From: Chloroflexota bacterium
GTDB lineage: Bacteria > Chloroflexota > Anaerolineae > Promineifilales > Promineifilaceae
Assembly: GCA_017993775.1 (NCBI GenBank)
Contig: JAGOMA010000013.1
Span: forward strand, 62,001-126,000
Length of the DNA: 64,000 nucleotides
Reading direction: 5' to 3'
Shown here: piece after piece, positions 5,214 to 26,810 of the stretch
Layout of the letters: each line of letters begins with the position of its first letter
Position numbering within the stretch: the stretch's first letter is position 1
Program-made: the position numbers and the translations under genes
The notes under the pieces: model-generated
Told to the model about the DNA's origin: nothing
The model's database searches: none
What the model saw: the letters and a program-made list of their open reading frames with translations, nothing else

Positions 5214-7793
5214 TCAGGCGGATCGCACGGCCGTGCGCTTTTTCTGCGGCAGCTGCATCGGCAGTTTCGTGCGGCGAACGCCATCAAACTGATACAGGGC
5301 ATTGGCGACAGCGCCGGCCGTAGGAACCAGACCAATTTCGCCAACACCTTTGGCCCCGTATGGACCATAGGGGTCCGGCACTTCTACGCCGATGATTTCC
5401 ATTTCGGGCATTTCTTTGGCGCGGAGGATGCCCATCTGGCGCAGGCGGGTGGATTTGGGACGGCCGTTCGCCATCACCAACTCTTCACTGATCGCATATC
5501 CCAGACCCATGTGCAGCGACCCTTCCAACTGCCCTTCAAACAGAGTCGGGTTAAAAATTTTGCCGGCGTCGTGGGCAGCCGTAATCTTTTTCACCTGCCC
5601 ATCGTCATCCAAAATCACCAACTGCGTGGCATAGCTGTAGGAGTAATGCGTATACACCTTCTCGACCATGGCGCCTGGCTTTGTGGTCCAATCCACCACC
5701 CACTCGCCACGATACGTGTTGCCCACCAATTCCGCCAGCGCATGGGTCTTCAAATCTTCTTTCAACTGCTTGCAGGCATCGATGAGCGCATTGCCCACCA
5801 ACGACGTGGCCCGCGAGGCCGTCGTCATGCCTGCTTCTTGATTGGCGGCCGTGTCGATAACGACCTCAATCAGGCGCGGGTCGATGCCAGTTTCCGTGGC
5901 TACCACCTGCTGAGCGACGGTGTTCACGCCCTGCCCCATCTCGGTCCAACCGTGGTCCACAATCACTCTATCCGGCGCGGCAATGGTCACCTGGGCCGAC
6001 GAGGCATCGGGCATGCCGTTGCCAATGCCTGTGTTTTTCAGGCCGCAGGCCAGCCCCGCATATTTGGCGGCGTAAAATTCATCTTTCACGGCCAACAGCG
6101 TCGCCCGCGCCCCGGCTCCCGCTTCAATGACCTGGCCGGTGGCCGTCATGTTGCCGTCTTGCAGGGCGTTGTCGTAGCGGAACTGCCAGCGGTCGAAGCC
6201 GCCCTGTTCGCACAGATCGTCGATCAAACTTTCCAGGCCAAAGATGGCCTGATTCACGCCAAAGCCGCGCATTGCCCCGCAAGGCACGTTGTTGGTGTAG
6301 ACGGCGATAGCTTCGACATCGGTGACAGGCACGTTGTAGGCTCCGGTGGCGTGACCGGCCGAGCGTTCTAATACCTTCATGCCAACGGAGGCATAGGCGC
6401 CGGTATCGCCCAGGAACTTTACGCGCACAAAGGTAAGCATCCCGGCGGCGTCGCAGCCGATTTCGTAATCCATCCAGATGGGATGGCGTTTGGGATGCAT
6501 CATGATCGATTCATCACGGGTGAGGCGCACTTTGACGGGAACGTTAAGCAGATAGGCCATCAGGGCGGCATGTCCTTGCACGGTCAAATCTTCTTTGCCG
6601 CCGAAGCCGCCGCCATTGGGAACCATAATCACGCGCACTTTTTCGAGCGGCAGGCCCAATAATTTGGCGATCTGGATGCGATCATCGTAGACGCCCTGCC
6701 CCTGAGACAACATTTCCAGGCCATCGTTGGCAGGATAGGCGATGGCGGCTTCGGTTTCCATGAAACCGTGTTCGATCCATTGGGTTTCAAATTCGCTTTG
6801 GGCGATGTAGGCCGATTTGGCCCGCGCTTCGTCTACGCTGCCGCGGCTGGTGTAACTGCGCGACAGTTTGTTGCCGTTTTCGTGGATGCGTGGCACGTCG
6901 GGTTGCAAAGCTTTGTGCATGTCGATGAGCGGTTCCAGCACCTCGTACTCTACCTTGATGAGTTCTACCGCCTGGCGGGCGATTTTTTCTGATTGGGCCA
7001 CGACGCCGGCGAGGACATCGCCGATATAGCGCGTGGTTTCGCCGATGGCGACCATCAGCGGCCAATCCTGGCGAATGAGGCCGATGATGCGGTCGCCGGG
7101 GATGTCTACGGCCGTTACCACCCGCACCACACCGGCCATTTTCTCGGCTTCACGGGTGTCGATGGACAATACCCGGGCACGCGGATGGTCGCTGAAGCGC
7201 AGCGCGCCATACACCATGCCTTCCAACTTGATATCATCGACATATTTGTGGCGACCCAGGACGAGGTCTTGGGCTTTGTATTTGGGCAGGCGGGAACCGA
7301 CACGGCCGTTTCCGTTTGGCGGTGCAATCTCTTCTTCTTTACGAATGGCGGCGGCCGCATACTCCACCGCGTCGATAATCTTTTTATAGCCGGTGCAGCG
7401 GCACAAATGGGGCGTAAGGGCTTTGGCGATATCTTCGCGGCTGGGTTCCGGGTTTTTGTTGATGAGCGCATTGGACTGCATGACAATGCCGGGGATGCAA
7501 AAGCCGCACTGCACGCCGCCCTTTTCCACAAATGCGTTCGCGTAAACCTTTTGCCGGTATTCGCCCAGGCCATCGGTGGTGGTTATCTGACCATCCGCAG
7601 CCTTTTGCATGGTGGTTACACATGACAAGACTGCCTTGCCATTCAAATCAACCGCGCAGCAGCCGCACGCAGCCTGGGGCGCGCAGCCATCTTTTGGTGT
7701 GGTGATTCCTTCGTGTTCGCGGAGATAAGTGAGGAGCGGCAGTTCGGGGTCTCCTTCGTAGACCCGAAGCTGTCCATTAAGCCAAAATTCCAT
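5214..7793 (-). CDS. Fused 2Fe-2S/molybdopterin hydroxylase, xanthine dehydrogenase type
   Basis: A single 859-residue chain carries both the iron-sulfur and the molybdopterin parts of a xanthine-oxidase-family hydroxylase. Residues 1-160: plant-type 2Fe-2S domain (C37, C43, C46, C58; the C-x5-C spacing is that of the fused family) and the helical 2Fe-2S domain (QCGFC, then CRCTGY). Residues about 170-859: aldehyde-oxidase a/b hammerhead, then the Mo domain with QGQGVYD, GGGFGGKE, CGAMRGFG, and GEIGLVPT at the end, holding the catalytic Glu. There is no FAD domain. This architecture matches what is called selenium-dependent xanthine dehydrogenase, though selenium use cannot be read from the sequence. 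Divergence from a nucleoside importer supports a purine substrate. An aldehyde or other heterocycle remains possible. Confidence 0.85.
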   Translation of the reverse strand: MEFWLNGQLRVYEGDPELPLLTYLREHEGITTPKDGCAPQAACGCCAVDLNGKAVLSCVTTMQKAADGQITTTDGLGEYRQKVYANAFVEKGGVQCGFCIPGIVMQSNALINKNPEPSREDIAKALTPHLCRCTGYKKIIDAVEYAAAAIRKEEEIAPPNGNGRVGSRLPKYKAQDLVLGRHKYVDDIKLEGMVYGALRFSDHPRARVLSIDTREAEKMAGVVRVVTAVDIPGDRIIGLIRQDWPLMVAIGETTRYIGDVLAGVVAQSEKIARQAVELIKVEYEVLEPLIDMHKALQPDVPRIHENGNKLSRSYTSRGSVDEARAKSAYIAQSEFETQWIEHGFMETEAAIAYPANDGLEMLSQGQGVYDDRIQIAKLLGLPLEKVRVIMVPNGGGFGGKEDLTVQGHAALMAYLLNVPVKVRLTRDESIMMHPKRHPIWMDYEIGCDAAGMLTFVRVKFLGDTGAYASVGMKVLERSAGHATGAYNVPVTDVEAIAVYTNNVPCGAMRGFGVNQAIFGLESLIDDLCEQGGFDRWQFRYDNALQDGNMTATGQVIEAGAGARATLLAVKDEFYAAKYAGLACGLKNTGIGNGMPDASSAQVTIAAPDRVIVDHGWTEMGQGVNTVAQQVVATETGIDPRLIEVVIDTAANQEAGMTTASRATSLVGNALIDACKQLKEDLKTHALAELVGNTYRGEWVVDWTTKPGAMVEKVYTHYSYSYATQLVILDDDGQVKKITAAHDAGKIFNPTLFEGQLEGSLHMGLGYAISEELVMANGRPKSTRLRQMGILRAKEMPEMEIIGVEVPDPYGPYGAKGVGEIGLVPTAGAVANALYQFDGVRRTKLPMQLPQKKRTAVRSA

Positions 7794-14498: not shown

Positions 14499-15662
14499 TT
14501 ACAACCCCAATCCCCAGGTGTATTCCAAACTACCAAACCCCTGTCCCATGGTGTCAGGGGTGATGGCTTTGCCCTGAACACGGCCGTTTAACCCCGCCAT
14601 CCTGAACATAAACTCGTTGTAATTCCAATGGCTGCGCAGCCAGCCCCCCAGCAGCGGGCGGTCGATATAGAGATTGGCATGTCCGTAGGGCACAGCGCGG
14701 AAATTGACAAAATCACCCTGTTTATTGCTCACCTGCACGTCGAATTGTGGATGGCGGCCAAGCCCCAGGACCGGCGTGACTTGGGCGGTGGTGAAGGTGA
14801 TTTGTTCGGACGCGCCGGCCCAATCCCAAAAACCGGCGGGCAGAATGGAAACGGCCGTTTGCTCCTTCTGGTTGCTGCCAAAAAAATGATACCCACGCCG
14901 CAGCAAGTTCAGCCCCACATACGGCACGTAGGCCGAAAACATCGAGCCATCCGGGAACAAAGCCCAAATCCATTTCCAGGGAAACGTGGGCACATTCAGG
15001 CACACGCGCTGGAAATAGCCCAATCCTGCCAACGTTTCCCGGCCGGTGGGCAGGTCAAAGTCGCCGCGAAAGTTCATGCGCCGCCAGGCGATGAAGTGCG
15101 TCCCGCCCAGTGGGGTGTCCAGGTTGATCGATTCGTGGGGTGAATTGTGCAGGCAGTCGAGATCGCCCCAGGCTTGAAAGTGCGCGGCCCCTTTTTGGCC
15201 GTAAACGTGGGCCTCCAGGGCGAGCGGACGGCCGTTGCTGCGGCCAATTTCCAGGCCAAGGGGACGACCATCCGGCTGAGTGGCTGTACACTGAATAACA
15301 GCGTCCGGCGCGGAGAGGGTGGCAACGGCCGTACTCTTCACAAAATCTTCGTACACCTGGCCGCCATCACAATACCAGCCATTCACCATGGCGCTAAACC
15401 GGTCCACGCCGCCCGTTATCGGCCGGTTCAGGTCCAGACCGGGCAGCCAATGGTCATTGATGCGGATTTGTTCGCCTGCCCGCGCCGCGATGGAAAACAT
15501 CATCTGTCGTGGACCGTAGCCTTCTCTTTCTCTTGGGAACAGGATAAAAAACCACCAGGAAGAGGAGGTTGGTTTTTGCATTTCCGGCATCTGCGACCAG
15601 ATCAGGTCATAGACACGTTGGTGTTCGGCCAGGGATTTGAATTGTGGGGAGGAATTGTTCAT
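14499..15662 (-). CDS. CrtC/AttH- or tocopherol-cyclase-like lipocalin-fold protein
   Basis: 387 residues, rich in Trp and aromatic beta-strands, with no signal peptide or membrane segment. The N-terminal WWFFILFPREREGYGPRQ, the central GGTHFIAWRRMNF and the C-terminal QGFGSLEYTWGLGL resemble the paired lipocalin-like domains of hydroxyneurosporene synthase/AttH and tocopherol-cyclase-like proteins. I base this on overall pattern, not on a proven catalytic motif. It is the last gene of the minus arm that starts at crtB, so a role in carotenoid or lipid modification (for example hydration of an end group) fits. An unrelated lipid-binding protein is the main alternative. Confidence 0.45.
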   Translation of the reverse strand: MNNSSPQFKSLAEHQRVYDLIWSQMPEMQKPTSSSWWFFILFPREREGYGPRQMMFSIAARAGEQIRINDHWLPGLDLNRPITGGVDRFSAMVNGWYCDGGQVYEDFVKSTAVATLSAPDAVIQCTATQPDGRPLGLEIGRSNGRPLALEAHVYGQKGAAHFQAWGDLDCLHNSPHESINLDTPLGGTHFIAWRRMNFRGDFDLPTGRETLAGLGYFQRVCLNVPTFPWKWIWALFPDGSMFSAYVPYVGLNLLRRGYHFFGSNQKEQTAVSILPAGFWDWAGASEQITFTTAQVTPVLGLGRHPQFDVQVSNKQGDFVNFRAVPYGHANLYIDRPLLGGWLRSHWNYNEFMFRMAGLNGRVQGKAITPDTMGQGFGSLEYTWGLGL

Positions 15663-18377: not shown

Positions 18378-19469
18378 TCACGTCGCTACGGCGCGATAGG
18401 TGAATGGCTCCAGATAGGCGTCATAACCGCCCTCTACCCCTTTCACAATTACGCTGATGGCGTCGTGGGAGTGCAAGGATTCTTTGTGGGAGGCGAAAAC
18501 GCGGAAATCCAGGATGCGTTCGTCGCTGTCCAGCCCTTCGTAAAGCAAACGAACGGCGTCCTCCACAAATTTCAGGTTCGCGGCGTTAAGTTCCGCAAAA
18601 GCCTGCTCATCTTCCCGCTTGACAAGAACCTGGGTTTCCGTTTGCAGCTTATCGCGGGCAATGTCTACCAGGTCTTCAATCATAAAGTCATCGGTGTATT
18701 CAACCGAAATTTTAGCCACTGAGCGCTGGCTGTGCGGCACGGCCGCTACGCCGCGGAACAAATTGGCGTGAACGCTCAATTCGTAACTGCACGGGCAGGC
18801 CGAGGAATACACAAAGTCCAGGTGAACAAATTGGCGCACACCACGATCCGGCGTGACAACCGTCTCCAAAACGACGGGGTAATATTGGTACCCGACCATG
18901 CCACTGCGCAGGCTTTGCAGCTTGAGCGGGTAGTCGAAGGCCACGGCAATGCGCGCATTGGAACTTTCCAGGTTTTTCAGGTAGCTGTAGACAACCTGCT
19001 GCAGCGTGTGGGGATTTAGTTCACTTTCGTCGTATTCATAAAAGGTACGCATGATTCGGCTCATATTGATGCCTTTTTTGTAGGCGTCCAACGAGACCGT
19101 ACCGGTAACGGAGGCGTGAATTTGCATTGGGTCGCCTTCACGCGTGATGATTTTCATCGGGATTTTGAAGTTGTGAATACCAACATGTTGAATGGTAACA
19201 TTTGCGCCACGATTTTGGTCGGTGTTTTGCATGTCTGGCAGCGTGGCTTTGTATGAAGGCGTCACCATGAAATTTTGGTCGTAGCGCTGCTGTAAATCTT
19301 TCACGCGGCGCGTATCGGCGATTGATTGGGGGGCGACTGCTGGTGCGACCTCTGTCGTAATGGCGGCGTCGCGCTTACCGTTGTGGTGGCCATTGCCGTT
19401 TGTATGAAGGTGACGGCCGTTACCATTAACGGTCGGAACATACGTGTTGATTGATTTATACATCATCAT
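18378..19469 (-). CDS. folE2: GTP cyclohydrolase FolE2 (type IB)
   Basis: Converts GTP to 7,8-dihydroneopterin triphosphate, the entry to folate and pterin synthesis, using a metal held differently from the Zn enzyme FolE. Seen after a low-complexity Asn/Gly/His N-terminal 60 residues: DMQNTDQNRG, IQHVGIHNFKIPM, MSRIMRTFYE, SSACPCSYELSVHANLF with the conserved active-site Cys, VPHSQRSVAKI, and ESLHSHDA near the end. At 363 residues it is about 70 longer than typical because of the N-terminal tail. It sits between crtB and the SDR genes on the same strand as them. Its presence in a CarH-linked cluster with photolyase suggests supply of a pterin/folate antenna for that enzyme (inference). Confidence 0.92.
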   Translation of the reverse strand: MMMYKSINTYVPTVNGNGRHLHTNGNGHHNGKRDAAITTEVAPAVAPQSIADTRRVKDLQQRYDQNFMVTPSYKATLPDMQNTDQNRGANVTIQHVGIHNFKIPMKIITREGDPMQIHASVTGTVSLDAYKKGINMSRIMRTFYEYDESELNPHTLQQVVYSYLKNLESSNARIAVAFDYPLKLQSLRSGMVGYQYYPVVLETVVTPDRGVRQFVHLDFVYSSACPCSYELSVHANLFRGVAAVPHSQRSVAKISVEYTDDFMIEDLVDIARDKLQTETQVLVKREDEQAFAELNAANLKFVEDAVRLLYEGLDSDERILDFRVFASHKESLHSHDAISVIVKGVEGGYDAYLEPFTYRAVAT

Positions 19470-19655: not shown

Positions 19656-20597
19656 CTATTGAAAACTTCGCCACCATAATCCGGGCAGCAGGCGAAGTTT
19701 GCCCCATGTGCTTACAAACGCACGATTGTTAAACACATCATAATCATTGGCTTCAATTTTGGGCAAAATAGCCCGGTACAAACCAGCTGCGGCGGCGATG
19801 GCGAAACGGCCGTCTTTATGCAACTTCCCAATCCCCGGCCACGCCTCTTCATAAAGCTGCCGGGTGCGGTCCAATTGAAAACGCATAAAGGCGCGCCACC
19901 GATCATCCACAACCCCGGCGGCAATATCCGCTTCGGTCAGACCAAAATGGGCCAATTCTTCCAACGGCAAATACAAACGACCGCGCCGCCAATCTTCACC
20001 CACATCACGCAGAATGTTGGTCATCTGTAAAGCCAGGCCCAATTTGATGGCAAATGGCAGCGCATCCGCCCCGGAAAAACCGATAATATGCATACTCATC
20101 AGACCCACCGTAGAGGCCACGCCATAGCTGTAGGTAGCCAGATCTTCAAACGTTTCGTACCGATCTTGCCGCATATCCCGAGAAACGCCTTCAACCAATT
20201 GTTCCGCATAGCGCGTAGGAACCTGATACCGCAGCCGGGCGTCGGCCCAGGCAACGGCCGCCAAATTATCGCTGCGCGGGTGATTGGAGAACGCCTGCTG
20301 CCGCCACTGCTCCAATTCAACCTCCATATCTCCCTGAGGACAATCTACTATGTCATCCGTGATGCGGCAGAAGGCGTACAGCGCGCGGACTGCCCGCCGT
20401 TTTTCCTCCGGCAACAATCCCGAAGCCATATAAAACGACCGGCTATGTTCAGAAGTAACCACATCGCAGTAAGCATACGCTTCTTTCAGCAGGGCTTCAT
20501 CAACAACCATAGCGCTGTGCGTAACGCCACCGACATGCCACGCCTCCCCCGCTAATGATAACAACTGATTTTCCCAAGCCCGTGTCTGTGCGACCAT
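19656..20597 (-). CDS. crtB: Phytoene synthase CrtB
   Basis: Head-to-head condensation of two geranylgeranyl diphosphates to phytoene, the first committed carotenoid step. 313 residues. Seen: [12 protein letters not shown], the two Asp-rich diphosphate-Mg motifs DDIVD near 85 and DVGED near 195, [10 protein letters not shown], and RRGRLYLP. A squalene/dehydrosqualene synthase of the same fold is the alternative, but the divergent crtI and CarH support phytoene. Ribosome site gaggaga lies seven bases before the ATG. Transcription probably starts near 20758 from a near-consensus promoter facing away from carH, leaving a leader of about 160 bases. Confidence 0.92.
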
Positions 20598-20764
20598 AAG
20601 ATTGTCTCCTCACTTAATTGAAGCGGTAAATAATTGATAACTCAGGTTACGCTCTCAAAAATCTTAAGGGCTTTGATACCCCCTGTCAACCGATTTTGAT
20701 CCAGGAAAACCGATAAGGTTTACATCTACATCTGAAGACCAGCATAACGCATCAGTTGAAAAGG

Positions 20765-20841
20765 ATATTAACATGTTGCAACGGTTTTGTCAATATATAA
20801 ATGTGCAAATTATTGACAAAATCAAGATTTCATGTTAATCT
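20765..20841. promoter_or_regulatory. Mirror-image divergent promoters of crtB and carH, probable CarH operator
   Basis: Plus strand: TTGACA 20813-20818, 17-base spacer, TAATCT 20836-20841, serving carH. Minus strand: TTGACA (complement of 20788-20793), 17-base spacer, TAATAT (complement of 20765-20770), serving crtB. Each promoter reads attgacaaaa near the -35 box and CATGTTAAT running into the -10 box, so the region is a near-perfect inverted repeat with 19 bases between the two -35 boxes. Shared boxes overlapping both promoters are what a repressor shutting both arms would need. CarH as the binder is inferred from adjacency and known biology. Confidence 0.8.
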
Positions 20842-20878
20842 CATAATAACCGAAGCAAAGGTACAAGGAAATTGTTAC

Positions 20879-22234
20879 ATGATCAGCCTGAGTAAAACAC
20901 CAACATACAACTTGAAAGTTGTCTTACAAGAAACCGACATAAAACCGGATACATTACGAGCCTGGGAGCGACGATACGGTCTTCCTGAGCCAGAACGAAC
21001 CCAAGGTAAACATCGCCTCTACTCCGACTATGACATCGCAATCATTAAATGGCTAATCTCGCGTCAACAGGAAGGCATGAGCATCAGTCGGGCTGTGCAA
21101 CTGTGGCGAAACCTGGAAGAAAGTGGGCAAGATCCGTTGGCAAAAATGGTGGACCAGCCTACGCAATTAGTTGAAAAAAATAATAGTACCACAGTACCAA
21201 CGCCTGTCAACGGCATGTCCACAACAATGGACGATATTCGACAAAAATGGGTAAATGCCTGCTTGAATTACGATGAAGCTACTGCAGAAGTCGCACTCAC
21301 TCAAGCTTTTGCACTTTATCCGCCAGATATCGTTTGCCTGCAAGTCCTGCAAAAAGGGTTGGTCCACATCGGCGATCTTTGGTACCACAATCAGGCGACG
21401 GTGCAGCAGGAGCATTTTGCTTCGGCGCTGGCTATGCGCCGGCTCAACACCCTCGTAACGGCCGCGCCGCCGCCCAACCGCCCAGGCAAAATCATCGTTG
21501 CCTGCCCGGCCGACGAGCACCACATTTTTGCGCCCATGTTTTTAACCTTGACCTTGCGTTATCGCGGCTGGGAAACGATTTACCTGGGAGCCAATGTGCC
21601 GTTGGAGTACCTGGAGAGCACCATTACATCTACACAACCCGACCTGATTGTGATGACGGCGCAGCAGCTGCATACGGCCGCTTCCTTATATGAGGTCGGC
21701 GAGTTTTTGCGCCAAAAAGGGATCAGCCTGGCTTTTGGCGGGCGCATCTTTAGCCTGACCCCGGCCTTGAGAAACAGAATATCGGGCCATTTCCTGGGCG
21801 AAAAATTAGACACGGCCGTGCAAGCCATCACCACCATATTGGACAAACGGCCGTTGCCCCCCAACCCCAAACCCGTCAGCCCGGAGTACCAGATTGCCCA
21901 GCGCCACTTCCGCGAAAACCAGGCAGAAATAGAAGCCCGCGTCTGGCAATCGCTCAAACGCGAATCTTTCCGCTACGAACATATCACCAACGCCAACCTG
22001 CACCTGGCCCGCGATATTAAAGCCGCGCTCACACTCGGCAGTGTCTCTTTCCTGGGTTCCGAAGTGGCCTGGACAGAAACGCTGCTCCTCAATTACGAGA
22101 TGCCAATCGAGCTATTGCACCGTTACCTCATTGCGTATCATCAGGCTGCCCAAGAAATTTTGCCAGAACAAGGCGGTCCGATCATCGAATGGCTGGACTG
22201 CATCACCGAAAATAGCCAGACCCCTTGCGCTTAA
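20879..22234 (+). CDS. carH: CarH/LitR-type MerR regulator with B12-binding photosensor and an added C-terminal domain
   Basis: CarH-type proteins bind adenosylcobalamin, form DNA-binding tetramers in the dark and fall apart when light breaks the Co-C bond, releasing carotenoid genes. 451 residues from the ATG at 20879 (caagga upstream; the earlier in-frame start lies inside the promoter). Residues 9-75: MerR helix-turn-helix (TLRAWERRYGLPEPER, GKHRLYSDYDI). Residues about 120-200: helical cap with W168-x9-E178-H179, exactly the CarH light-sensing motif. Residues about 200-330: Rossmann B12 domain with E-x-H near 212-214 in the place of the lower-ligand His, and GANVP. Residues 335-451: a helical domain absent from the roughly 290-residue classical CarH. 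Confidence 0.9.
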   Translation: MISLSKTPTYNLKVVLQETDIKPDTLRAWERRYGLPEPERTQGKHRLYSDYDIAIIKWLISRQQEGMSISRAVQLWRNLEESGQDPLAKMVDQPTQLVEKNNSTTVPTPVNGMSTTMDDIRQKWVNACLNYDEATAEVALTQAFALYPPDIVCLQVLQKGLVHIGDLWYHNQATVQQEHFASALAMRRLNTLVTAAPPPNRPGKIIVACPADEHHIFAPMFLTLTLRYRGWETIYLGANVPLEYLESTITSTQPDLIVMTAQQLHTAASLYEVGEFLRQKGISLAFGGRIFSLTPALRNRISGHFLGEKLDTAVQAITTILDKRPLPPNPKPVSPEYQIAQRHFRENQAEIEARVWQSLKRESFRYEHITNANLHLARDIKAALTLGSVSFLGSEVAWTETLLLNYEMPIELLHRYLIAYHQAAQEILPEQGGPIIEWLDCITENSQTPCA

Positions 22235-22272: not shown

Positions 22273-23691
22273 ATGAAAACTGCTATTTGGTGGATTCGGC
22301 GCGATTTGCGCCTGAGTGATAACGACGCCCTGACGGCCGCAATCCAGAACGCGGATCAGGTTATTCCCCTGTTCATCATCGACCCGGCGCTGGCAAACAC
22401 CAGGTATGCCGGCGAAAAACGGTTGGCCTTTCTTTGGGCCGGTTTAAGCTGCCTTGATGACGCGCTGCGCCGCCAAGGCAGCTATTTAGTCGTGCGTCAG
22501 GGCCGCCCATCGCAGGAGTTGGCGGCGCTGATGGCCGAAACCGGCGCCACGGCCGTTTACGCCCAGGAAGAGTATTCGCCCTATGCCCAACGACGCGACC
22601 GGGCCATTGCTGCCGAGTGCCCGCTGCACCTGACACCCGGTCTGACCATTCAGCCGCCTACGGCCGTTCTCAAAACCAACGGCCAGCCCTACACCGTTTT
22701 CACCCCGTTCAGCAACGTCTGGCGCGCACGACCGTTTCCCCGCCCATCGGACATTTTGCCCGCGCCCGACCACATTCCCACGCCCGCCGCCATCCCCAGT
22801 TTGCCGCTGCCTGCCGAGCCAGCCTTGCCCGCCGCTCTCCCCTTCCCCGCCGGCGAAGCCGAAGCGCAGCGGCGGCTCCAGCGCTTTTGCCGCCCGGACG
22901 ATGGCCCCATCTACACCTACGCCGAACAGCGCAACCGCATGGATCTGGATGGCACGTCGCAGCTTTCGCCCTATTTGCGGTTTGGCATGGTGTCCGCCCG
23001 GCAAACGGCCGTCGCCGCGCAAGCCGCCCATGAAACTGCCACCACGAACGGCCGTTCCGGCAGCGCCGCCTGGCTCAACGAACTGATCTGGCGCGAATTT
23101 TATATCCACATTTTGTACCATTTTCCGCACGTCCTCAGCGGCAACTTCAACCCGGCCTACAACGCCATGCAGTGGCAAAACGACAAAACCCAATTCGCCG
23201 CCTGGCAAAACGGCCGTACCGGCTTCCCCGTCATCGACGCCGCCATGCGCCAACTACAAACCACCGGCTGGATGCACAACCGCGCCCGCATGATCGTCGC
23301 CTCATTTCTGGTGAAAGACCTGCTCATCGACTGGCGCTGGGGCGAGCAGCACTTTATGCAGCATCTGGTCGATGGCGATCCGGCGGCCAACAACGGCGGC
23401 TGGCAGTGGTCGGCAGGCACAGGCACAGACGCCGCGCCTTATTTCCGCATTTTTAACCCCATTACCCAAAGCCAAAAATTTGATCCAGACGGCCGTTATA
23501 TCCGTCAATGGGCGCCAGAGCTAACGGCCGTGCCCGACACCTTCATCCACGAACCGGCCAAAATGCCCCTATCAGAGCAAAAACGAGTCGGCGTGATCAT
23601 CGGCCAGAATTACCCCGCCCCCATCATCAATCGCCAACACACGCGCCAACACACCCTGGAAGCTTACAAACTGGCGCGTGAATCGGTATAA
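22273..23691 (+). CDS. phr: Deoxyribodipyrimidine photolyase (class I CPD type)
   Basis: Light-driven repair of cyclobutane pyrimidine dimers by FADH-, usually with a folate or deazaflavin antenna. 472 residues. N-terminal photolyase domain: [41 protein letters not shown]-terminal FAD domain: [75 protein letters not shown]. These match class I CPD photolyases; the Trp/Asn residues of the active site are in place. The ATG at 22273 is preferred to one six codons upstream, because [14 protein letters not shown] begins the domain. It follows carH by 38 bases and precedes crtI, so it is most likely light-induced with them. Confidence 0.94.
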
Positions 23692-23734: not shown

Positions 23735-25270
23735 ATGTCACAAAAAGTACTCATCATCGGTAGTGGATTTGGCGCATTAGGCGCGGCGGCGCGATTGGCC
23801 GCCCGCGGATATGACGTTGAAATCTTTGAAAAACTAGACAAAATCGGCGGCCGCGCCTACGTATTCGAGAAAAACGGCTTCAAATTCGACGGCGGCCCCA
23901 CAGTTATCACCGCGCCGTTTATGTTCGACGATATTTTCGCCCTCGCCGGCCGCCGCCGCGAAGATTATGTCGACTTTGTTCAGCTCGACCCGTTCTACCG
24001 CATCTTTAACCACGAAGGGCGTTCCTTCGACTACAACGACGACCCGGACTTCATCTCCAGCGAAATCGCCAAATGGAACCCCGCCGATGTGGCCGGCTAC
24101 CATCGCTTTATGTCTACCACCAAAGCCATCTTCGAGAAAGGCTTTGTACAATTGGCCGACAAACCTTTCCTGACCATCGGCGATATGCTGCGCGTCGCCC
24201 CAGACCTCATCAAGCTGCAATCGCATAAATCGGTCTACCAATACGCCGCCAGCTTCGTGGAAAACGATTTTCTGCGCCGCGTCTTTTCCTTCCACCCGCT
24301 GCTGATTGGCGGCAATCCGTTTGACTCGTCGTCGATCTACGCCATGATCCATTACCTGGAACGGGAATGGGGTATTCATTATGCAAAGGGCGGCACTGGC
24401 GCGCTGGTAGCTGCCATGGCCAGGTTGATTGAAGAGTTGGGCGGCCAGTTTCACCTGAATGCCGAGGTAGAGGAGATATTGGTAAACGGCCGTACCGCCA
24501 CCGGCATCCGTCTGGCCGATGGAACCATCCACAAAGCCGATCACGTCATCTCCAACGCCGACGTGGCCTGGACCTACCTGAACATGATCCCCGCCAAAGC
24601 GCGCGGCTTGCGCAACTCCGACACGCGCTACAAAAAGCTCACCAAATACAGCATGTCGCTGTTTGTCATCTACTTTGGCACTAAAAAACGGTACACCGAC
24701 ACCAATCTCGCCCACCACAACATCATCCTCAGCGAGCGCTACAAAGGACTGCTTTCCGACATCTTCCAAAAGAAAGTCTTGTCGGAAGATTTCTCGCTCT
24801 ATTTGCACATGCCCACCCTCACAGACCCCAGCATTGCCCCCGCCGGACATGAAGGCTTCTATGTCCTGTCGCCGGTTCCGCACCTGGGCGCAGATATCGA
24901 CTGGACCCAAACGGCCGTGCCCTACCGCAACGCCATCATGCAATTCCTGGAAGACAACTACCTGCCCGATCTCCAGGCCAACGTCGTCGCCGAAACCCAC
25001 ATCGACCCATTACATTTCCAGGGCCGACTCAACTCCTACATGGGGTCCGCTTTCTCCGTGCAGCCCGTTCTCACCCAGTCCGCCTGGTTCCGGCCGCACA
25101 ACCGTTCCGAAGATTTTGACAACCTCTATTTCGTGGGCGCAGGCACACATCCCGGCGCGGGCTTGCCAGGTGTGCTGTCTTCATCTAAGATCGCCGAAGA
25201 TTTAATCGTCAGCAGTTCACCACTGCCGGCAAACTATCGTCGTCCACAACAAGAACTTGTAAAGGGGTAA
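23735..25270 (+). CDS. crtI: Phytoene desaturase CrtI type
   Basis: FAD-dependent desaturase that introduces conjugated double bonds into phytoene. 511 residues from an ATG with gggag upstream. The N-terminal FAD site [30 protein letters not shown] and [19 protein letters not shown], plus the C-terminal [29 protein letters not shown], are classical for CrtI. The sequence cannot say whether it makes three or four desaturations (neurosporene or lycopene). CrtI-like ketolases and saturases share these motifs, but the pairing with divergent crtB in one cluster supports the desaturase. A short overlap region with the end of phr is only apparent, arising from an unused upstream start. Confidence 0.92.
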
Positions 25271-25302
25271 GACCACATCCGAGTGGTTTTCAAAAAATGA
25301 AG

Positions 25303-25340
25303 CGTAGAGATTGGAGCCTCTCCAACTTCCAATCTCTACG
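25303..25340. repeat. Hairpin, gtagagattgga (ccaatctc) family
   Basis: Perfect 13-bp arms cgtagagattgga and tccaatctctacg around a 12-base loop, shortly after crtI. Same ccaatctc core as the elements at 14436, 35291 and 52632. It may partly separate crtI from the P450 gene. Confidence 0.7.
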
Positions 25341-25436
25341 CCCCAAGGTTCTAATTACGCTGTTTTTGTTTTACAAGGTCTAACCAAAATCGATGAGGGG
25401 ATGCCGGTAACCAAATGAAAACGAGGAAGGTTACCC

Positions 25437-26810
25437 ATGTCAGAAGAAGAGTCACCCTGCCCGCATAGCCGCCCGCTGCCCATAGCCGATGGTGAAACCG
25501 GAGCCAAAATTCTTAAAGGATTATCACGCGATCGGTCATTGTTAACCGCCCTGTCGCTCATGCGCGAGCATGTTGGGCCGGTTTTCCAGATCACCTTGCC
25601 GATTTTCCGTCCGGCGGTGTTTGTGGGGCCAGACACAAACCGCGAAATCCTGGTCACCCAACGCAGCCAATTTATCTGGCGCAAAGAAAGCGATCCGGTC
25701 GCCAAACTGCTGCGACGCGGCATTTTGGTGGTGGATGGCTCAGAGCACGACGATTTGCGGGCCATCATGGACCCGCCGCTGCATCGTCGGCATGTAATCA
25801 ACCATTTGGACGCTTTCTGGGACTACACCAATGTGGTGATTGACGGCTGGGAAAACGGCCGTTCCGTCGATATGCTCGTAGAAATGCGCAAAATAGCCCT
25901 GCTCATCCTCATGGGAACCATGTTCAAAGTGGACTTTGCGCCTGATCTAGACCGCTTGTGGCGGCCCATCCTCAAAGCCATCAGCTACATTTCGCCAGGC
26001 ATTTGGATCATCTTTCCCAACCTTCCCCGCCCGCAGTACCAGCGAGCCATCCAGGAAATCGACGCCTACCTCTTCGGCGTTATCGCCCAACGGCGCGCCG
26101 CCCTGGCCGATGGCTCCGCAGCCGTCGATCCCGGCGACCTGCTGGGCGAATTGATCCGCGGCGGATTGGATGACGGCCGTATCCGCGACCAGATGCTTAC
26201 CATGCTCATCGCCGGCCACGATACCAGCACTGCACTATTGTCTTGGGTCTGGTATCTGCTGGGCAGCCACTCGGAAGCCATGGCCCAGGCCAAAGCAGAG
26301 GTAACGGCCGTAATCGGCCAGGCCAACCAGCCGCCCACACTGGAACAAGTCAACCAGTTATCTTACCTGGACATCGTGATCAAAGAAGCGCTGCGCCTCT
26401 ACCCGCCCATCCATGTCGGCAACCGCCACGCCGGAGACAATATCAACGTGAACGGCTATGAAGTCCCAGAGGATACCCGTGTCATGTACTCCATTTATCT
26501 GGCGCACCGCGACGAGCGGTACTGGGAAAATCCGGCCGATTTTTGCCCCGAACGTTTTGATCACAGCCAGGCGGAACAGGGAAAACGGCCGTCACTCACC
26601 TATGTCCCCTTCGGCGGCGGGCCGCGCAACTGCATCGGCGCCGCTTTTGCCCAAATAGAAAGCAAAATTGTCCTGGCGCGCATCTTGCAGCGTTTTGACC
26701 TGACCCTGCTCAATGCCGACAAAATCAAACCCTACATGGGCGCCACCCTGGAACCAAGACCCGGTGTCCTCATGCAGATCGCCTTTGCAGAGGCCCGCCA
26801 TGCTGGATAA
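25437..26810 (+). CDS. Cytochrome P450, probable carotenoid hydroxylase
   Basis: 457 residues, soluble bacterial type with no membrane anchor. Seen: I-helix AGHDTSTALLSW (acid-alcohol pair for oxygen activation), ExxR in KEALRLYPP, the PERF variant CPERFDH, and the heme loop FGGGPRNCIGAAFAQIE with the Cys thiolate ligand. The layout and neighbours recall CYP175A1 of Thermus, a carotenoid beta-ring hydroxylase that lies with crtB, photolyase and the LitR/CarH gene. Ring or chain hydroxylation of a carotenoid is therefore the best guess. No lycopene cyclase gene is visible in the window, so the true substrate may be acyclic. It overlaps the glycosyltransferase start by 11 bases. Confidence 0.88.
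   Translation: MSEEESPCPHSRPLPIADGETGAKILKGLSRDRSLLTALSLMREHVGPVFQITLPIFRPAVFVGPDTNREILVTQRSQFIWRKESDPVAKLLRRGILVVDGSEHDDLRAIMDPPLHRRHVINHLDAFWDYTNVVIDGWENGRSVDMLVEMRKIALLILMGTMFKVDFAPDLDRLWRPILKAISYISPGIWIIFPNLPRPQYQRAIQEIDAYLFGVIAQRRAALADGSAAVDPGDLLGELIRGGLDDGRIRDQMLTMLIAGHDTSTALLSWVWYLLGSHSEAMAQAKAEVTAVIGQANQPPTLEQVNQLSYLDIVIKEALRLYPPIHVGNRHAGDNINVNGYEVPEDTRVMYSIYLAHRDERYWENPADFCPERFDHSQAEQGKRPSLTYVPFGGGPRNCIGAAFAQIESKIVLARILQRFDLTLLNADKIKPYMGATLEPRPGVLMQIAFAEARHAG

Follow-up and report, generated by a model that had tools for sequence, protein, structure and literature searches.

CarH-controlled promoters in described systems

CarH proteins repress adjacent crt genes, and the CarH operators of T. 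thermophilus and B. megaterium contain three or four repeats; for the CarH operator of T. thermophilus there is the structure 5c8e, with a 26-bp DNA. In T. thermophilus, crtB and carH (litR), located on pTT27, are also divergent, with a photolyase and a P450 nearby, as in the locus described here. Direct reading of the HB8 crtB-carH region (TGTACAaaagcTTGACA) gives TGTACA-AAAGC-TTGACA-AAACC-TATACA, and both loci have the tandem repeats TGTACA-N5-TTGACA (TGTGCA in the first repeat here), the second at the position of the carH -35. The Thermus operator includes TATACA as a third repeat, and its crtB arm lacks TTGACA, whereas our locus has only two repeats and, on the crtB arm, a consensus -35 that mirrors that of carH; directly after carH comes ldrP in Thermus, and a photolyase here. 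It has been reported that T. thermophilus crtB is helped by a CRP-family activator (PMC7662524).

In the dark, the AdoCbl-loaded CarH oligomer binds DNA and represses, and light dissociates the oligomer (PMC9304148, PMC10442372). Known CarH operators are tandem 11-bp repeats, 5'-nnnnTnnACAn-3', one of them carrying the -35 (PMC9304148). In Myxococcales these repeats lie over -35/-10 elements and vary in number, as they do here, and in myxobacteria CarH tolerates operators that have just one full repeat or two (PMC9304148). Divergent CarH-controlled pairs have been proposed in Sorangiineae and Nannocystineae, and for the Sorangiineae pairs crtI-carH and crtE-crtD control of both promoters is expected, as it is here; the passages of PMC9304148 consulted describe no conserved pair of TTGACA boxes placed back to back around a central box, as in our locus. 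Thus, the design of the crtB-carH switch is already known from Thermus and myxobacteria, and is found here in an uncultured Chloroflexota with its own variations.

The divergent crtB-carH locus

The window, that is, the whole stretch of 64,000 nucleotides analysed, contains crtB and carH on both sides of a 281-bp intergenic region, which is AT-rich (35% GC, versus 56% GC for the window). The identities assigned to both genes in an earlier note on this DNA agree with their Pfam matches (Table 1), the best NCBIfam model for crtB being a CrtB, at 282 bits and below its 550 cut-off. The start codon of carH is the ATG at 20879, and not the 20801 of the mechanical ORF, and that of crtB, on the minus arm, is the ATG at 20597. 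On the right, carH, phr and crtI are tightly packed, and on the left crtB is accompanied by folE2, after which a hairpin probably ends the unit. Between crtI and the P450 gene there is a strong inverted repeat (25300-25345, AGAGATTGGAG...CTTCCAATCTCT) without a clear T run, which is possibly a terminator or an attenuator. Further to the left, 14499-15662 on the minus strand encodes a 387-aa protein, in a leftward gene run, for which Pfam gave no match.

Table 1. Coordinates of the features of the crtB-carH locus within the window.
Feature	Position	Strand	Evidence or remarks
Terminator-like hairpin	18356-18329	-	12 pairs and T-rich tail
folE2, GTP cyclohydrolase, after crtB	18378-19469	-	NF010200 over cut-off
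crtB, phytoene synthase family	19656-20597	-	Pfam SQS_PSY
Second promoter-like match TTGACA-17-TAAGAT in crtB leader	20689-20661	-	Both elements altered in same-genus relative
Conserved divergent promoter/operator block	20764-20842		97.5% identical to same-genus genome
crtB promoter -10 TAATAT, extended TGT	20770-20765	-	Sequence reading
crtB promoter -35 TTGACA	20793-20788	-	Also inverted TnnACA box, 14 bp from central box
Tandem CarH operator, two 11-bp repeats nnnnTnnRCAn	20798-20808 and 20809-20819	+	Fits CarH repeat nnnnTnnACAn (PMC9304148)
Central CarH box TGTGCA (DR1; TGCACA on minus strand)	20802-20807	+	Exactly 11 bp from carH -35
carH promoter -35 TTGACA, CarH repeat DR2	20813-20818	+	Sequence reading
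carH promoter -10 TAATCT, extended TGT	20836-20841	+	TGnTAAT kept in same-genus relative
carH, MerR HTH, B12-binding domains and predicted C-terminal five-helix domain, 451 aa	20879-22234	+	Pfam MerR_1, B12-binding_2, B12-binding
phr, DNA photolyase, downstream of carH	22273-23691, probable ATG 22273	+	Pfam; start region read
crtI, phytoene desaturase family	23735-25270, probable ATG 23735	+	TIGR02734, 581 bits, over cut-off; start region read
Cytochrome P450, co-directional with crtI	25437-26810	+	Pfam p450

As the earlier note had described, 20765-20841 reads directly as two back-to-back divergent promoters of the form TTGACA-17-TAATnT; each also has an extended -10 (TGT). When the intergenic region was shuffled 20,000 times with its dinucleotides preserved, neither a strict divergent pair nor a tandem 11-bp box with promoter arose in any shuffle, and a relaxed divergent pair arose in 70. 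The -35 boxes are perfect, whereas the -10 boxes, despite the extended TG of both arms, match TATAAT at only 3/6 (TAATCT) and 4/6 (TAATAT) positions. The carH transcript would be expected to start near 20848 and that of crtB near 20758, with a leader of about 160 nt. At the -35 boxes, the mirrored stretches TTTTGTCAATA and TATTGACAAAA are identical (11/11), forming a perfect 11-bp inverted repeat, and at the -10 boxes GATATTAACATG and CATGTTAATCTC agree at 11/12 positions. The 17-nt spacers of the two arms are identical at 9/17 positions, which is not exceptional, arms of different genomes having a mean of 7.5 (range 3-11). A count of TGTCAA-N16..22-TTGACA gives a single occurrence each in the 6.0-Mb genome and the same-genus genome, a pattern that the crtB-carH block and its orthologue fit.

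Two candidate elements in the crtB leader were rejected. The second promoter-like match (Table 1) is not conserved in the same-genus relative and is probably a chance occurrence, and a search for a riboswitch in the 160-nt leader gave no Rfam match of note and a folding that is not unusual (z = 0.59).

A directional operator between the promoters

The central box TGTGCA, an element absent from the earlier note, forms with the carH -35 an operator of two repeats in exact register. DR1 departs from TnnACA by one A to G change, and several relatives have TGTACA; the operator has two repeats rather than three or four, the positions of a third repeat being empty here and at most family sites. The crtB -35 ends 4 bp beyond the edge of the operator repeat.

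The promoter/operator block is far better conserved in the same-genus genome than the adjacent leader (20651-20759), which is 70.6% identical. This relative carries a one-base insertion on the crtB side of the centre, before the -35 of that arm, but has no change from the central TGTGCA through to the carH -35; TGnTAAT is kept as well. The identical mirrored flanks pointed out earlier are present in our locus, but the identity of CATGTTAAT is lost on both arms of the relative (right CATGCTAAT, left CCTGTTAAT). Taking into account this insertion, the changes in the flanks, and a spacer identity that falls in the range of unrelated arms, it is the promoter elements and the directional element that are conserved, and not the mirror symmetry as such.

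When genome contigs were scanned with this one CarH sequence, just two relatives came up, and the comparison was therefore based on family genomes. The closest named relatives are Chloroflexota/Anaerolineae MAGs, with CarH identities of 94% and 66%, which places the window in that group. The regions upstream of carH in relatives show TGTRCA-N5-TTGACA. Ten genomes with the divergent module were compared. In each of them the distance of the central box to one arm is exactly 11 bp, against 13, 14 or 15 bp to the opposite arm, and the operator is turned round in two (G010 and G016; for G016 the core sequence was read and the outermost flank letters of the spacing were assumed). The gap between the two -35 boxes is 18-20 bp in 10/10 genomes, a constancy that would fit a need for joint coverage. 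Conservation thus falls on a tandem repeat with a direction, TGTRCA-N5-TTGACA, which has an 11-bp period and keeps register with a single arm. The mirror-like appearance is best explained by the -35 TTGACA of both near-consensus promoters doubling as a CarH half-site, and not by a dyad-symmetric reading by the protein.

The operator in the family and its predicted targets

The pattern TGTRCA-N2..10-TTGACA-N16..18-TAnnnT was scanned in 52 family genomes, giving 80 box-plus-promoter sites, 49 of them at N=5 (11-bp spacing) and 2-9 at each other spacing, with 1 and 2 matches for the reversed-pattern controls. The formal P for the 11-bp spacing, 7e-27, is overstated by the non-independence of orthologous sites, although many different target genes are involved. 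Raw spacing counts for TGTCAA-N-TGYACA peak at 5 and 8; as both share a codon phase, they are confounded by coding sequence and were set aside, and when a -10 is required only the 11-bp peak is left.

Among the targets of these 49 sites are carH itself in about 15 genomes, carH beside crtB being the most frequent single target, crtI in 2, and TspO-like membrane proteins in 8 (L196, L142, L197, L146, L179, L168, L152 and L199), of which 2 pass Pfam and the rest are assigned by resemblance. An SDR/DICT/SRPBCC-like/desaturase unit is also found; in the window genome (G000) its site lies at contig C67:102475-102514 (L084 ~5475-5515, minus strand), and the SDR, DICT-domain and CrtI/CrtD-like desaturase genes of C67 are probably a second CarH-controlled unit of this genome. 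Fasciclin lipoproteins, AhpC-like proteins and ABC/FtsX transporters complete the targets, and since their genes also carry the motif, another regulator or a second CarH could share it. Genera in which crtB and carH are apart often have separate tandem CarH repeats at crtB, which points to crtB as a CarH target in the family; in genus g22 crtB itself has three (TGGACA-TATACA-TTGACA).

Two further resemblances were observed in the window genome. On contig C113 (L085 ~5538-5570), a stretch of about 33 bp shares 88% identity with part of the divergent block, adjoining a TetR-like regulator and ABC genes, with a box spacing unlike that of a CarH operator. Within carH, antisense to it, 21221-21183 on the minus strand reads TGGACA-N5-TTGACA-N16-TACTAT, probably by chance; the same-genus genome has TGGGCA in place of the first box.

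The CarH protein

The MerR-type HTH and two B12-binding domains of CarH match Pfam over the curated cut-offs. Residues W168, E178, H179 and H215 align with W131, E141, H142 and H177 of T. thermophilus CarH (TtCarH), and this W-x9-EH motif and the lower axial His are invariant in a 24-sequence family alignment. His132, the upper ligand of the light state in Thermus CarH, is replaced by Tyr169, with Tyr or Phe in the aligned relatives. In TtCarH, the His132 ligand switch drives tetramer breakup (PMC10442372). This position varies among B12 photoreceptors (Arg, Gln or Tyr, including Tyr in AbDPcob; PMC11796333), and for this reason His132 does not define the family; given the replacement by Tyr169, light release in a CarH of this kind may use another route. 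The best NCBIfam match is the CarH equivalog NF052513, at 118.9 bits and below its cut-off of 400.

The C-terminal domain of about 115 residues (21880-22231) is predicted to contain five helices, in a model of low confidence (pLDDT 56). The best PDB fold match of this weak model is the photocobilin 8j2w, over nearly the full chain, and the match of the family profile runs into the C-terminal domain of 8j2y. In photocobilins (8j2w, 8j2y; PMC10979010) a five-helix domain, the photoglobin domain, likewise comes C-terminal to the B12-binding domain, and the predicted domain of this CarH resembles it; CarH differs from them in its N-terminal MerR DNA-binding domain. No Pfam heme oxygenase was found in the window genome or in 24 relatives. 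This makes the binding of biliverdin or bilin by the C-terminal domain doubtful, and bilin sensing was rejected on this ground and because the key Asp is not reliably placeable. A photocobilin-like C-terminal domain on a CarH lacking the His132 of Thermus is the least expected point of this analysis.

A second CarH, encoded on contig C14 (L086 5758-7065), is 43-44% identical to the crtB-adjacent protein and has the same key residues. Its gene adjoins an NAD-dependent epimerase-like gene, near lon, and its promoter contains the tandem TAGACA-N5-TAAACA, identical in the same-genus genome and like repeats 2-3 of Thermus, which suggests that this CarH is autoregulated as well.

Proposed mechanism and alternative explanations

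Taking these data together, the probable reading is that of a bidirectional promoter autoregulated by CarH, in which dark AdoCbl-CarH on the directional operator would shut both carH and crtB and light would free both. In the dark, AdoCbl-loaded CarH oligomers would occupy the two tandem repeats (20798-20819), covering the carH -35 directly, and would probably make contact with the inverted TTGACA on the crtB side as well; the crtB promoter would be shut by overlap or steric exclusion. Such contact or exclusion is likely because the crtB -35 ends so close to the operator edge and is itself an inverted TnnACA box; it is from this proximity that we infer repression of the crtB arm by CarH. Light would then cleave the Co-C bond and CarH would leave the DNA, allowing both units to start, crtB-folE2 leftward and carH-phr-crtI, probably also the P450 gene, rightward. 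CarH would limit its own level, and the genes for pigment and light repair should be silent in the dark and expressed in the light. The compact autoregulated light switch of the earlier note is thus the best reading of the sequence, with a CarH operator that overlaps or abuts both -35 boxes, but not by way of symmetric boxes. This reading is favoured by the 11-bp register in the ten modules, the 49/80 family sites and their targets, the three tandem repeats at other crtB promoters of the family, the Thermus match, the kept AdoCbl residues and the conservation of the block. Against it stand two in-register repeats versus three in T. thermophilus, a DR1 with TGTGCA instead of TnnACA, the presence of the motif before ABC/FtsX, fasciclin and AhpC-like genes, and a CarH without His132.

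It has also been considered that CarH, bound to the tandem operator, represses the carH arm alone, with crtB near-constitutive or under another factor, such as the CRP-family activator of Thermus (PMC7662524). In favour of this, just one arm keeps the 11-bp register with the operator, the spacing to the other drifting over 13-15 bp, and crtB owns a near-consensus promoter; however, the -35 boxes stay 18-20 bp apart in ten genomes, as if one complex must cover both, and the tandem repeats that crtB often has where it is apart from carH mark it as a target, which leaves this explanation rather improbable. Less probable still is that the operator is real but mainly read by the second CarH or by another MerR protein: the second CarH keeps the same key residues and its own gene has a tandem promoter repeat, but among the targets of the box carH beside crtB is the commonest, and CarH proteins are known to repress adjacent crt genes.

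The proposal of the earlier note, one repressor reading the mirror-symmetric boxes as a dyad and silencing both arms, draws on the perfect 11-bp inverted repeat around the -35 boxes, each of which is a TnnACA box. Nevertheless, the spacing of the mirrored boxes varies over 18-20 bp and the tandem register never does, the flanking CATGTTAAT symmetry is gone in the nearest relative, and the known CarH operators are tandem (PMC9304148). The dyad-symmetric operator was rejected on the spacing data and the lost flank symmetry, and is very unlikely; what takes its place is a directional repeat in register with one arm and reversed in two genomes. Two strong unregulated promoters placed back to back, without any operator, would agree with their near-consensus sequences and with AT-rich intergenic DNA, but are scarcely credible against the conserved central box, the 11-bp register, the family-wide enrichment and the Thermus match. 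The bidirectional CarH-controlled promoter is hence the reading that we prefer.

Implications for the family

A broader and more tentative proposal is that a distinct type of CarH, with MerR, B12-binding and photoglobin-like domains and Tyr in place of His132, might run a light/photo-oxidative regulon (crtB, crtI, photolyase, the SDR/DICT/desaturase operon and TspO-like proteins) through two-repeat directional operators, one operator in either orientation switching two consensus promoters at crtB-carH.

If the preferred reading is right, a B12 light switch of understood structure would be extended to an uncultured family of Chloroflexota, and the predicted operator code, TGTRCA-N5-TTGACA, could be scanned genome-wide to name light-regulated genes. 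The locus would also offer a natural test of the minimum repeat number for CarH and of DNA release without the His132 ligand switch, and a small bidirectional promoter governed by one operator could become a green-light optogenetic part.
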